NCBI GenBank assembly: GCA_900322035.1
Contig: ONYL01000014.1
Span: 1-56,471 of the forward strand
Direction of reading: 5' to 3'
DNA from: an uncultured Prevotella sp.
Lineage (GTDB): Bacteria; Bacteroidota; Bacteroidia; Bacteroidales; Bacteroidaceae
Length of the DNA stretch: 56,471 bases
The position numbers and the translations under genes were made by a program. The notes under the pieces are model-generated. The model was not told where the DNA came from and ran no database searches. It worked only from the letters and a program-made list of their open reading frames with translations. This document shows positions 33,862-36,878 of the stretch, in pieces (the stretch's first letter is position 1; the number at the start of each line of letters is the position of its first letter).

Positions 33862-33933
33862 CAGCGGTTATTCAAAGCTGCCCAATTGTAAGTAATTGGG
33901 CTTATGGGTAAAGGATTCATTATTTTTTTATAT

Positions 33934-35022
33934 ATGAAAGATCGCAAAGTAGCTCTTATCACGGGCATTACGGGCCAGGACGGTTCTTACTTGGCCGAGT
34001 TTCTCATCGACAAAGGTTATGAAGTACATGGGCTTCTCCGCCGCTCATCATCGTTCAACACAGGGCGAATAGAGCATCTGTATCTTGACGAGTGGGTGCG
34101 CGACATGAAGAAATCCCGTCTGGTCAACCTTCATTGGGCCGATATGACCGACTCCTCATCGCTCATCCGCATCATATCGGAAGTGAAACCAACAGAGATC
34201 TACAACCTCGCCGCACAGAGCCACGTAAAGGTGAGCTTCGATGTGCCGGAATATACGGCAGACACCGATGCTGTTGGCGTGCTGCGCCTGTTGGAGGCCG
34301 TGCGTATCTGCGGTCTGGAGCACGAATGCCGCATCTACCAGGCTTCTACATCAGAGCTGTTTGGCAAGGTGCAGGAAGTGCCTCAGCGCGAGACAACGCC
34401 TTTCTATCCCCGCTCACCCTACAGCGTAGCCAAGCTCTACGGCTTCTGGATCATGAAGAACTACCGCGAATCCTACGGCATGTATTGCTGCAATGGCATT
34501 CTCTTCAACCATGAGAGCGAGCGACGTGGTGAGAATTTCGTCACCCGCAAGATCACGCTTGCTGCCTGCCGTATCGCCCAGGGATACCAGGACAAGCTTT
34601 ACCTTGGCAACCTCAATGCGCTGCGCGACTGGGGCTATGCCAAAGACTATGTGGAGTGTATGTGGCTTATCCTGCAGCAGCCCGAGCCCGACGACTTTGT
34701 GATTGCTACCGGCGAGTACCACACAGTGCGCGACTTCGCGACACTGGCTTTCCACCATGTGGGCATAGAACTCGAATGGCAGGGCGAGGGTGTAGACGAA
34801 AAGGGCATTGACAAAGCCACCGGCCGCGTGTTAGTAGAGGTTGATCCTAAATATTTCCGTCCCGCAGAGGTAGAACAGTTGCTCGGCGATCCCAGCAAGG
34901 CAAAGAAAGTTTTGGGATGGAATCCCCGCAAGACAAGCTTTGAGGAGCTCGTCAAAATTATGGTCGACCACGACATGAAGTTTGTCAAGAAACTGTATCT
35001 CAAGGCACAATTGCCGGAGTAG
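33934..35022 (+). CDS. gmd: GDP-mannose 4,6-dehydratase
   Basis: Gmd converts GDP-mannose to GDP-4-keto-6-deoxymannose, the first step toward GDP-L-fucose. The 362-residue short-chain-dehydrogenase-type enzyme has the NADP-binding GITGQDG motif (residues 11-17), the STSELFGKV active-site segment and the YSVAK catalytic pair (Tyr163, Lys167). The [17 protein letters not shown] stretch is characteristic of Gmd. The ATG at 33934 is chosen because the Rossmann motif then sits at its normal distance. It heads a fucose-nucleotide operon, interrupted here by a DUF559 element before fcl. Confidence 0.96.
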
Positions 35023-35024
35023 GA

Positions 35025-35070
35025 GACCCGCCCCCAAGCCCCTCCCTCCAAAGGGAGGGGAGTAATCACT
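35025..35070 (+). repeat. left palindromic inverted repeat of the DUF559 element
   Basis: This arm begins three bases after the gmd stop. It contains a 9-bp stem CCCCTCCCT-CCAA-AGGGAGGGG (35039-35060). Its reverse complement appears almost perfectly at 35608-35653, with 28 consecutive identical bases from 35036 to 35063. Confidence 0.85.
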
Positions 35071-35114
35071 ATTGATTGGATTTCAAAAGTCGTAGCTTCA
35101 TTAACAATTCAAGC

Positions 35115-35591
35115 ATGTCTGATTCTTCAGAAAACAGGAGGGCTCTCAGCCACAACACTGATAAAGGAGAGGATCATTCTCTTGCAAACGAATGGGATGC
35201 TTTGCGCATTGTCTCTGACAGGACACTCTATCAATGTGCATCTCCAAGTTCTTATGGCATGTTGAAACAATATGCCAGGGAAAACAGAAAGTACATGACA
35301 GATGCAGAGAAAATGTTGTGGGAGGAATTGAGACTTGAGCAATTGGGGGTGAAGTTTCAACGACAATATATTATTAAGGATTACATTGTCGACTTCGTTT
35401 GCTTAGAGAATAATCTGATTATAGAAGTCGACGGTGCCTACCATTTTGAGCCCAAACAGCAAATCTTGGACGAATATCGTCAGTCTGATTTAAAAGGATT
35501 GGGCTTTAAAGTGTTGCGGTTCTCTAATGAGGAGATTATGTGCAACATGAATGATGTAATAGATAAAATCAAACACGAATTAATGATTTGA
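35115..35591 (+). CDS. DUF559 (Vsr-like, PD-(D/E)xK fold) endonuclease-domain protein
   Basis: The 158-residue protein contains a full DUF559 domain from about residue 48 to the end. The segments MLKQYARENRKYMTDAEK and LWEELRLEQLGVKFQRQYII are followed by the predicted metal and catalytic cluster IVDF (Asp93) and IIEVDGAYH (Glu104, Asp106, His110), then GFKVLRFSNEEI. The family is related in fold to Vsr very-short-patch nucleases; its substrates are not well known. The ATG at 35115 is the first in frame; an inner ATG at 35259 would give the domain alone. It sits between two inverted palindromes and interrupts the gmd-fcl operon. Confidence 0.85.
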   Translation: MSDSSENRRALSHNTDKGEDHSLANEWDALRIVSDRTLYQCASPSSYGMLKQYARENRKYMTDAEKMLWEELRLEQLGVKFQRQYIIKDYIVDFVCLENNLIIEVDGAYHFEPKQQILDEYRQSDLKGLGFKVLRFSNEEIMCNMNDVIDKIKHELMI

Positions 35592-35607
35592 CCTGAACCT
35601 TCTGATC

Positions 35608-35653
35608 ATATCACTCCCCTCCCTTTGGAGGGAGGGGCTTGGGGGGTGGGTCT
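35608..35653 (-). repeat. right palindromic inverted repeat of the DUF559 element
   Basis: This is the reverse complement of the left arm, differing at a few positions (an extra C in the C run, G/A changes). The stem CCCCTCCCT/AGGGAGGGG is preserved. It ends 13 bases before the fcl start codon and replaces any normal leader of fcl. Confidence 0.85.
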
Positions 35654-35666
35654 TCTATTTTTCGCT

Positions 35667-36878
35667 ATGTTAGACAAGTCATCAAAGATTTACGTTGCCG
35701 GTCACCACGGATTGGTGGGATCGGCTATTTGGAACAATTTGAAGCAGCGCGGCTACAACAATCTTGTGGGCCGCACCCACCGTGAGCTGGACCTCACCGA
35801 CCAGCTCGCCGTGAAGAAGTTCTTCGATGAGGAACAGCCCGACGCAGTTGTATTAGCAGCAGCCTTCGTGGGCGGCATCATGGCCAACTCACTCTATCGC
35901 GCTGACTTCATCATGCAAAACATGAAGATTCAGTGCAACGTCATTGAGCAGGCCTACAAGCACCACGTGAAGAAACTGCTCTTCCTTGGTTCCACCTGCA
36001 TCTACCCCAAGAATGCGCCGCAACCGATGAAGGAGGACGCACTGCTCACCTCTCCCTTGGAGTATACCAACGAAGAGTATGCCATCGCCAAAATAGCCGG
36101 ACTGAAAATGTGCGAGAGCTACAATCTGCAGTACGGCACAAACTATATCGCCGTGATGCCGACAAACCTCTATGGCCCTAACGACAACTTCCACTTGGAG
36201 AACTCCCATGTAATGCCGGCCATGATGCGCAAGGTCTATTTGGCCAAACTCATCCACGACAACGACTGGGATGCCATTCGCGTGGATATGGACAAACGCC
36301 CCATCAATCCCACAGACAAGCTGCGCGCTATCATTGGCGAGGGAAATGTGGACGGCGGCAACGACAAGGAGCGAATTCTCAAGGCTCTTGCCTTCTATGG
36401 CATTGAGGACAACAAGGTGACGCTTTGGGGAGACGGAAGTCCGCTGCGCGAGTTTCTTTGGAGCGAGGACATGGCCGACGCCAGCGTCCACGTGCTGCTG
36501 AATGTGGACTTCAGCGACATCATCGGTATAGAGAAATACTCCAGCGTGTTCTATGGGGCCAAGACCGACGGTGAGGTGAACCGCAACAACTCTGAGGGTC
36601 GTGGCGGTGCCATTCCTTCGTTGGGCGAGATCCGCAATTGCCACATCAATGTAGGTACCGGAAAAGAGCTCACCATCAAAGAACTTTCAAGTCTCGTGGT
36701 GAAAACAGTAGGCTTTGAAGGCGATGTGGTGTGGGATACTACCAAGCCCAACGGCACTCCTCGCAAGCTCATCGATGTAGAGAAACTCCACCGCCTGGGC
36801 TGGCGCCATAAGGTGGAAATCGAAGAAGGAGTGGAGAAACTCTATCAGTGGTATCGCAAGAGCCTGGAAACGGAATAA
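35667..36878 (+). CDS. fcl: GDP-L-fucose synthase
   Basis: Fcl (WcaG) epimerises and reduces the Gmd product to GDP-L-fucose using NADPH. The 403-residue protein has the GHHGLVG nucleotide motif (residues 12-18), the STCIYPKNAPQP active-site segment and the YAIAK pair (Tyr138, Lys142). It is about 80 residues longer than E. coli Fcl; the extra sequence lies around residues 205-245 and 290-320 and includes a Lys/Asp-rich insert, as seen in Bacteroidales versions. The ATG at 35667 is used; an in-frame TTG start would fall within the inverted repeat. GDP-fucose feeds capsule, O-antigen and protein fucosylation in this group. Confidence 0.94.
   Translation: MLDKSSKIYVAGHHGLVGSAIWNNLKQRGYNNLVGRTHRELDLTDQLAVKKFFDEEQPDAVVLAAAFVGGIMANSLYRADFIMQNMKIQCNVIEQAYKHHVKKLLFLGSTCIYPKNAPQPMKEDALLTSPLEYTNEEYAIAKIAGLKMCESYNLQYGTNYIAVMPTNLYGPNDNFHLENSHVMPAMMRKVYLAKLIHDNDWDAIRVDMDKRPINPTDKLRAIIGEGNVDGGNDKERILKALAFYGIEDNKVTLWGDGSPLREFLWSEDMADASVHVLLNVDFSDIIGIEKYSSVFYGAKTDGEVNRNNSEGRGGAIPSLGEIRNCHINVGTGKELTIKELSSLVVKTVGFEGDVVWDTTKPNGTPRKLIDVEKLHRLGWRHKVEIEEGVEKLYQWYRKSLETE

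Follow-up and report, generated by a model that had tools for sequence, protein, structure and literature searches.

A DUF559 nuclease gene between BoxC-like palindromes in an uncultured Prevotella, a probable member of a widespread two-part system

Described repeat systems and the 629-base unit

BoxC repeats have been known in Escherichia coli since the 1990s and are the same element as the PIT and intrastrand triplex motifs according to Holder et al. (2015, PMC4666352), in which the consensus was counted 3610 times in 262 proteobacterial genomes (this and other published work is cited here from excerpts of the papers). Each copy consists of a C-rich stem, a short loop, a G-rich stem, a second short loop and a mirror G-rich block, and stands solo or in an inverted pair, with 23 copies in strain MG1655, five pairs of them inverted; the excerpt links the motifs to instability, names no enzyme for them, assigns the E. 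coli copies no function and describes no mobility genes near them (PMC4666352). In the systems formed by repetitive extragenic palindromes (REPs), their paired form (REPINs) and REP-associated tyrosine transposases (RAYTs), palindromes flank a divergent enzyme gene, each gene having its own palindrome type, and inverted pairs are dispersed through the genome (PMC3116915, PMC8266576), with a GTAG/CGTC tag at the palindrome foot (PMC3733652). Homing endonucleases of the EDxHD type, such as I-Bth0305I (PDB 3R3P), have extended DNA-binding domains (PMC3943268), and a DUF559 gene has itself been termed an EDxHD homing endonuclease (PMC9403480). The present study compares with these systems a 629-base unit (positions 35025 to 35653) comprising a DUF559 gene between two palindromes, located between gmd and fcl on a 56,471-nucleotide contig of an uncultured Prevotella sp. 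(GCA_900322035.1, ONYL01000014.1), which was analysed over its whole length and is called the window below.

The comparisons make it fairly probable (roughly 0.7) that this unit belongs to a widespread two-part system, in which a nuclease of the Vsr fold, DUF559 (YcjD in E. coli), is combined with cognate palindromes of the BoxC/PIT/intrastrand-triplex type. The outer arms of the unit (35031 to 35066 and 35610 to 35645) were 97% complementary across 36 nt, and 91.7% identical over 48 alignment columns with their outer tails included. The near-perfect repeats described in a first-pass annotation, made from the letters alone, were therefore recovered, with a perfect run of 33 bases (35031 to 35063 and 35613 to 35645) instead of the 28 given there; the runner-up perfect inverted repeat in the window, with arm starts at most 1 kb apart, measured 14 nt. 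Folding of both arms likewise bore out the predicted 9-bp hairpins, each with a 4-nt loop (left, -11.2 kcal/mol, z -2.74; right, -10.8 kcal/mol, z -2.49). A feature absent from that annotation is an outer tail that mirrors the stem: each hairpin is accompanied on its outer side by a further G-rich block in the mirror order of the hairpin's G-rich strand (on that strand, GGGGCGGGT at the left arm and GGGGTGGGT at the right), giving the layout CCCCTCCCT-TTGG-AGGGAGGGG-CTTG(G)-GGGGYGGGT. The resulting three-block palindromes at 35026 to 35060 (minus strand; stem CCCCTCCCT, loop TTGG, AGGGAGGGG) and 35616 to 35651 (plus strand), both with the third block pointing away from the gene, were the only matches of a three-block finder in the window at the threshold used. 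A covariance model (R1), with both arms among its training sequences, matched them at 35027 to 35059 (E 8.5e-06) and 35617 to 35649 (E 6.5e-06), and no Rfam family matched the element, the four matches obtained being all far under the cut-offs.

Between the arms lies, as had been described, a single DUF559 gene (35076 to 35591, plus strand; PF04480, E 1.5e-34), starting at TTG 35076 or ATG 35115. Counted from the ATG, the product has 158 residues; its structure model (predicted local distance difference test score 81) contains a single confidently modelled domain, at about residues 42 to 158, whose predicted fold is that of Vsr and I-Bth0305I; DUF559 also showed a distant sequence match to I-Bth0305I. 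Among 49 sequences, Glu104, Asp106 and His110 were invariant and Asp93 was conserved in at least 90%, in agreement with the four residues named beforehand. The model thus favours the Vsr-like assignment of the first-pass annotation, and of its proposal of a homing-like nuclease it favours the homing endonuclease-like fold only.

Compared with the described systems, the arms share with BoxC the three-block architecture including the mirror third block, whereas they miss the strict TM-ECO consensus CCCTCNCCCN3-6GGGNGAGGGN3GGGNGAGGG (PMC4666352), the stem being CCCCTCCCT and the second loop 4 to 5 nt instead of 3, and the DUF559 gene has no counterpart in the BoxC excerpt. The arrangement of palindromes around an enzyme gene resembles REP/RAYT, but the enzyme is a predicted Vsr-fold nuclease and not a HuH Y1 transposase, and the palindrome adds the mirror third block. 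The inner foot, to be set beside the GTAG/CGTC tag, reads AGTAAT or AGTGAT in the window and AGTAG in part of the relatives. With EDxHD enzymes the protein probably shares the Vsr-like catalytic fold, but it appears to lack their extended DNA-binding domains, and its gene, judged from open reading frames only, is free-standing between genes with palindromic brackets and not within an intron or intein. Among known proteins, the Vsr mismatch endonuclease and NGO0050 (PDB 3HRL) also come close, but unlike DUF559, Vsr genes were unlinked to palindromes, with none at any of the 27 Vsr loci of the relatives.

Association of DUF559 with the palindromes across genomes

DUF559 was present in 28 of 60 relatives, and a flanking inverted repeat (E < 0.01) was found at 20 of 30 fetched DUF559 loci versus none of 37 control loci (29 gmd, 8 others). 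The three-block finder, which was developed on these 30 loci and then applied unchanged to the second set below, placed a palindrome within 800 bp of all 24 full-length DUF559 genes (window included; L015 and L043 weak), at none of the six fragment or remote DUF559 matches, at none of the 29 gmd loci that served as controls (101,394 bp) and at one of 30 RAYT loci of the relatives. A second set consisted of the best 80 loci from named genomes among the matches listed for an alignment of five DUF559 proteins including YcjD; by title these were mainly Pseudomonadota, together with Desulfobacterales, Chloroflexi, cyanobacterial, Nitrospiria, Omnitrophota, Methylomirabilota, Rokuibacteriota and Clostridia records. 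Palindromes stood within 400 bp of DUF559 in 74 of the 80 and on both sides in 55, bracketing the gene mostly as inverted copies, while shuffled flank pairs scored in 1 of 80. Their density was 4.33 per kb within 250 bp (a class that includes matches centred in the DUF559 stretch itself), 0.34 at 250 to 500 bp and 0.11 to 0.19 at 500 to 2000 bp, a 20- to 40-fold drop within 1 kb. Among the matches listed for the window protein, the best homologues formed a third set, in which 22 of 23 loci had a palindrome (one, L325, repeating an earlier locus). The outcome that the first-pass annotation had held to speak against it, a palindrome unrelated to DUF559 elsewhere, was accordingly not observed, given the linkage in 74 of the best 80 loci.

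DUF559 matches also occurred in 43 plasmid records, and a palindrome or flanking inverted repeat was seen in nine of ten records that were hand-picked for taxonomic spread and kept outside the statistics (none in L077); a DUF559 protein search in phages gave three records. On a Pseudanabaena plasmid (L079), a 90-nt inverted repeat at 1301-1389 and 1836-2027 brackets DUF559 and contains GCCCCCTAAATCCCCCAATTCTGGGGGACTT, a palindrome of different look that may be a cyanobacterial version. On pSymB of Sinorhizobium meliloti strain Ak57 (L082, about 1965-2050), homology to two sister plasmids stops just past the right DUF559 palindrome, near an ISRm16 transposase gene, and matches to parts of this element were found at 462 places across 144 plasmid records, mainly of Sinorhizobium and Rhizobium; recent movement in Sinorhizobium was considered and rejected, the compared loci being orthologous and not moved. 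In two Klebsiella plasmid records (L202 and L203, about 2501-2913), the interval between cysP and a gene for a Dyp-type peroxidase holds an unannotated DUF559-like stretch that has palindromes on the right-hand side.

The number of palindromes followed the presence of DUF559. The R1 model, built from 32 palindromes of 17 loci, was searched in the 60 relatives, some of which had contributed palindromes, with at most 118 candidates scored per genome. Genomes with DUF559 (E <= 1e-18, n = 24) had a median of 21.5 matches (0 to 112) versus 0 (0 to 39) in the others (n = 36; p = 5e-6), and the same comparison within the genus gave 50 versus 2.5 matches (16 and 20 genomes; p = 1.5e-4). Similarly, 553 of 591 forward matches to the exact pattern CCCTCCC-N3-5-GGGAGGG fell in the 24 genomes with DUF559, and a reversed control pattern matched once. 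Across the 60 relatives, palindrome number showed no relation to the presence of RAYT (p = 0.81) or Vsr (p = 0.54). The first-pass annotation had named rarity of the palindrome elsewhere as adverse to its proposal; many copies were found in relatives, and in the window's own genome (G000, 87% complete) the palindrome is rare, the model finding three, two of them at this element. The solo copy, with the exact hairpin pattern (G000:C97:59072), has a contig end 200 bp away, and the available sequence shows no DUF559 next to this copy.

The association extends to E. coli, whose DUF559 protein is YcjD. In MG1655, CCCCTCACCCTAACCCTCTCCCCAGAGGGGCGAGGGGAC was found by eye 166 bp from ycjD, the first, stricter version of the three-block finder having missed it, and its reverse complement fits the published BoxC consensus. 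A query of this BoxC copy plus ycjD was matched over at least 80% of its length in 3364 of 5426 E. coli genomes. Among 60 records sampled at even steps, those with ycjD (n = 37) had 14 to 30 palindrome places (median 22, ycjD's own counted), chromosomes without ycjD (n = 22) had 2 to 20 (median 5) and a further 786-kb record had one, a contrast that is consistent with the association but not independent evidence for it, because ycjD presence follows E. coli phylogroups (PMC12817139). The ycjD locus was rejected as a clean empty-site test: in the three strains without the gene that were examined, its place beside fabI is taken by an efflux operon and a gene for a TetR protein, which represents a replacement and not an empty site, in agreement with the eef operon described in PMC12817139.

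Insertion sites, fold and divergence

In the window, the unit separates gmd (33904 to 35022, plus strand; GDP-mannose 4,6-dehydratase, Pfam GDP_Man_Dehyd, E 1.3e-152) from fcl (35667 to 36878, plus strand; GDP-L-fucose synthase, Pfam Epimerase, E 1.4e-59), whose reading frame is open from 35625 and spans the right palindrome. gmd was detected in 252 of 299 genus genomes, and the 30 best loci were fetched, one being the window and 29 its closest relatives. None of these 29 had DUF559 between gmd and fcl, and the gap was at most 30 bp in 21 of them (maximum 365 bp), so that the empty junctions looked for in related strains exist; an insert present in all relatives, the opposite outcome, was not encountered. 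The element is nevertheless not unique at this site within the genus. The closest homologue of its DUF559 in the genus sample, among the matches listed (60% identity), occupies the same junction in G203 (gmd 86% identical), a 50% homologue does so in G308 (gmd 65%), and G186 has a related DUF559 after fcl; the occupied junctions are a minimum count from the 23 loci examined among the listed matches of the window protein. Because G203 and G308 carry related elements there too, the gmd-fcl junction is repeatedly occupied, by separate insertions or patchy retention. In the window and in G308 the unit starts just behind the stop codon of gmd, and in G203 it starts within the last gmd codons; the right end passes directly into the fcl coding sequence in G203 and G308.

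Units and palindromes were also found inside coding sequences. A leuS query matched 59 of the 60 relatives, some via other synthetases only, and among 30 fetched loci a DUF559 unit lay inside leuS in two genomes of different families, at the same loop ahead of the editing domain, with 27 loci lacking DUF559 at that loop and one unscorable; in leuS of G016 (L196, minus strand), one of these 27, a solo palindrome lies in frame at this loop and is translated as LTPDPSPRRGE. Further in-frame joins involved guanylate kinase, an ABC-F-like protein, an AAA_11/AAA_12 protein and an amino acid kinase. In L028 (G009), L032 (G029) and L204 (G016), DUF559 with its palindromes forms an in-frame N-terminal fusion with guanylate kinase, the kinase being called by Pfam for the first two and from downstream sequence for the third.

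Under a homing explanation, the palindromes spread by other means, and DUF559, as a free-standing homing endonuclease gene, would insert itself at cuts made in or close to them. Sites occupied more than once fit this, namely the gmd-fcl junction in three genomes and a single loop of LeuRS, which holds the unit in two families and a solo palindrome in a third genome, and so do the fold of DUF559 and its distant match to I-Bth0305I. This explanation is unlikely, although it fares best among the alternatives: no target palindrome is present in the gmd loci, including the junction, of the 29 closest relatives, palindrome copy number follows DUF559, and the unit starts at differing gmd-fcl positions, unlike a fixed target.

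Short palindrome pairs in relatives recall REPINs. In G016, a single contig, the 16 stretches examined around palindromes contained nine outward-facing pairs at spacings of 56 to 166 nt, and the 16 nt inside these pairs agreed with the inner ends of the DUF559 element L030 at 10.0 of 16 positions (shuffled 6.2, sd 0.4). L030 was the best-matching of the three DUF559 elements of this genome; L205 agreed weakly (6.1; shuffled 4.7, sd 0.5) and L204 did not match (6.2; shuffled 6.1). Likeness to REPINs in the dispersal of inverted pairs accordingly refers to relatives, with part of G016 fetched, and the window's genome holds its three model-detected copies. For a pair within L223 of G026, only the 93%-identical sister G003 aligned with the whole unit among the matches listed from 120 genus genomes, the others matching flanking pieces. 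Also in G016 (L213-L217), same-strand palindromes stand in runs about 44 nt apart and can be read as proline-rich frames.

The palindromes appear to be constrained as a folded structure. When hairpins near DUF559 were picked regardless of a third block, the adjacent sequence mirrored its own stem (mean 0.891) better than other stems of equal length and A count (0.782) in 173 of 195 informative cases (p = 3e-27), and a version with one flank per hairpin gave 0.608 versus 0.559. Stem and third block therefore change together, which disfavours neutral evolution of the repeats, an outcome named beforehand as adverse to the proposal, and suggests, from covariation across loci, a three-strand DNA fold that is read by a protein. 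A folded substrate of this kind would also suit a nuclease specific for DNA structure that moves nothing and instead processes triplex-prone palindromes or removes them, the palindromes persisting only where the enzyme is present. Vsr is a repair nuclease and has the predicted fold of DUF559, and the published link between the motifs and instability (PMC4666352) points in the same direction. Upkeep of this sort is nonetheless somewhat less likely than homing, as it leaves unexplained why the gene is bracketed by palindromes, why inner ends are common to short units and one DUF559 element, and why insertions are in frame.

DUF559 genes fetched from nine multi-copy genomes were 38 to 54% identical within a genome, with no near-identical duplicates. 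In 14 elements from five genomes, the left and right palindromes of one element, hand-chosen where several existed, were closer to each other than palindromes of different elements in the same genome (0.153 versus 0.337; 0 of 5000 permutations). Divergent, single enzyme genes each with its own palindrome correspond to the pattern described for RAYTs and REPINs (PMC3116915), here with nine genomes bearing on divergence and five on palindrome type. The inverted termini, and the short pairs that share them and resemble the unit at their inner ends, might instead reflect an ordinary self-copying transposon whose internal-deletion derivatives are miniature inverted-repeat transposable elements; this is improbable because DUF559 genes within a genome are so divergent, near-identical copies and, by eye, target duplications being likewise lacking. 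That the GC-rich hairpins are terminators, or are moved by RAYT or another enzyme and lie near DUF559 incidentally, is very improbable, for although such palindromes are very common in some genomes (PMC4666352), their density falls steeply away from DUF559, the RAYT, Vsr and gmd control loci had one palindrome in all (at a RAYT locus), and RAYT as the mover is disfavoured by this result together with the lack of a RAYT match (PF01797) in G000 and of any copy-number relation.

A candidate enzyme for BoxC-type repeats

Several observations weigh against the proposed two-part system. Palindromes were numerous in four genomes without a DUF559 match, G032 (32), G022 (39), G027 (28) and G014 (14), of which only G032 is more than 90% complete, and some E. 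coli strains without ycjD reach 20 places, in a species where phylogroup already qualifies the copy contrast. Conversely, three genomes with DUF559 had no R1 match, G012 (a fragment; 13 by pattern), G044 and G052 (a fragment), 8 of the 24 had none by the exact pattern, and 6 of the 80 best loci, as well as L077 and L314, had no palindrome. The third block faces away from the gene in the window's genus (L015-L044) but inward in most of L092-L171, and a Mantel test of protein against stem distance in 72 of the 80 loci revealed no correlation (r = 0.02, p = 0.36). As to movement, no target duplication was seen by eye at leuS, gmd-fcl or the G016 pairs, and no clean polymorphic unit was found in 100 kb (5 x 20 kb each) of the sister genomes G003 and G026.

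With these points included, the first-pass interpretation is partly supported; its central proposal, a non-RAYT counterpart of REPIN systems, is strongly supported on comparative grounds, by the linkage, the REPIN-like pairs, the copy number that follows DUF559 and the separate palindrome of each divergent gene. It is slightly favoured on balance that DUF559/YcjD proteins are the missing enzymes of the BoxC/PIT/triplex repeats, a family present in many bacterial phyla, and form with them a second, RAYT-independent kind of REPIN system whose Vsr-fold nuclease reads a mirror-symmetric three-strand fold, and that gene-bearing units can enter operons and essential genes in frame (leuS, gmk and the gene of the ABC-F-like protein). 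Cutting by the nuclease, movement of the unit and the direction of causation are what we infer from these comparisons. DUF559 would recognise a folded single strand, hairpin plus mirror third block, exposed in replication or repair, and might nick or cut at the foot of the folded palindrome; the cut could then let palindrome pairs be copied or moved in trans, and rarely a pair enclosing the gene would move whole, as this copy may have done into the gmd-fcl junction. DUF559 would thus act for BoxC-type repeats as RAYT is thought to act for REPINs.

In the literature, searched by titles and abstract starts with few subscription journals or preprints, DUF559 or YcjD was nowhere tied to BoxC/triplex or REP-like palindromes, and "DUF559" and "inverted repeat" never occurred in one paper, though the link may be in print elsewhere. 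If true, a cognate nuclease would give a function to the uncharacterised domain family DUF559, might explain the instability of BoxC sites between strains, and would mean that more than one class of enzyme has given rise to REPIN-like systems. It would also open the old BoxC question to direct tests in E. coli K-12, a single laboratory strain that has both YcjD and 23 published repeats.
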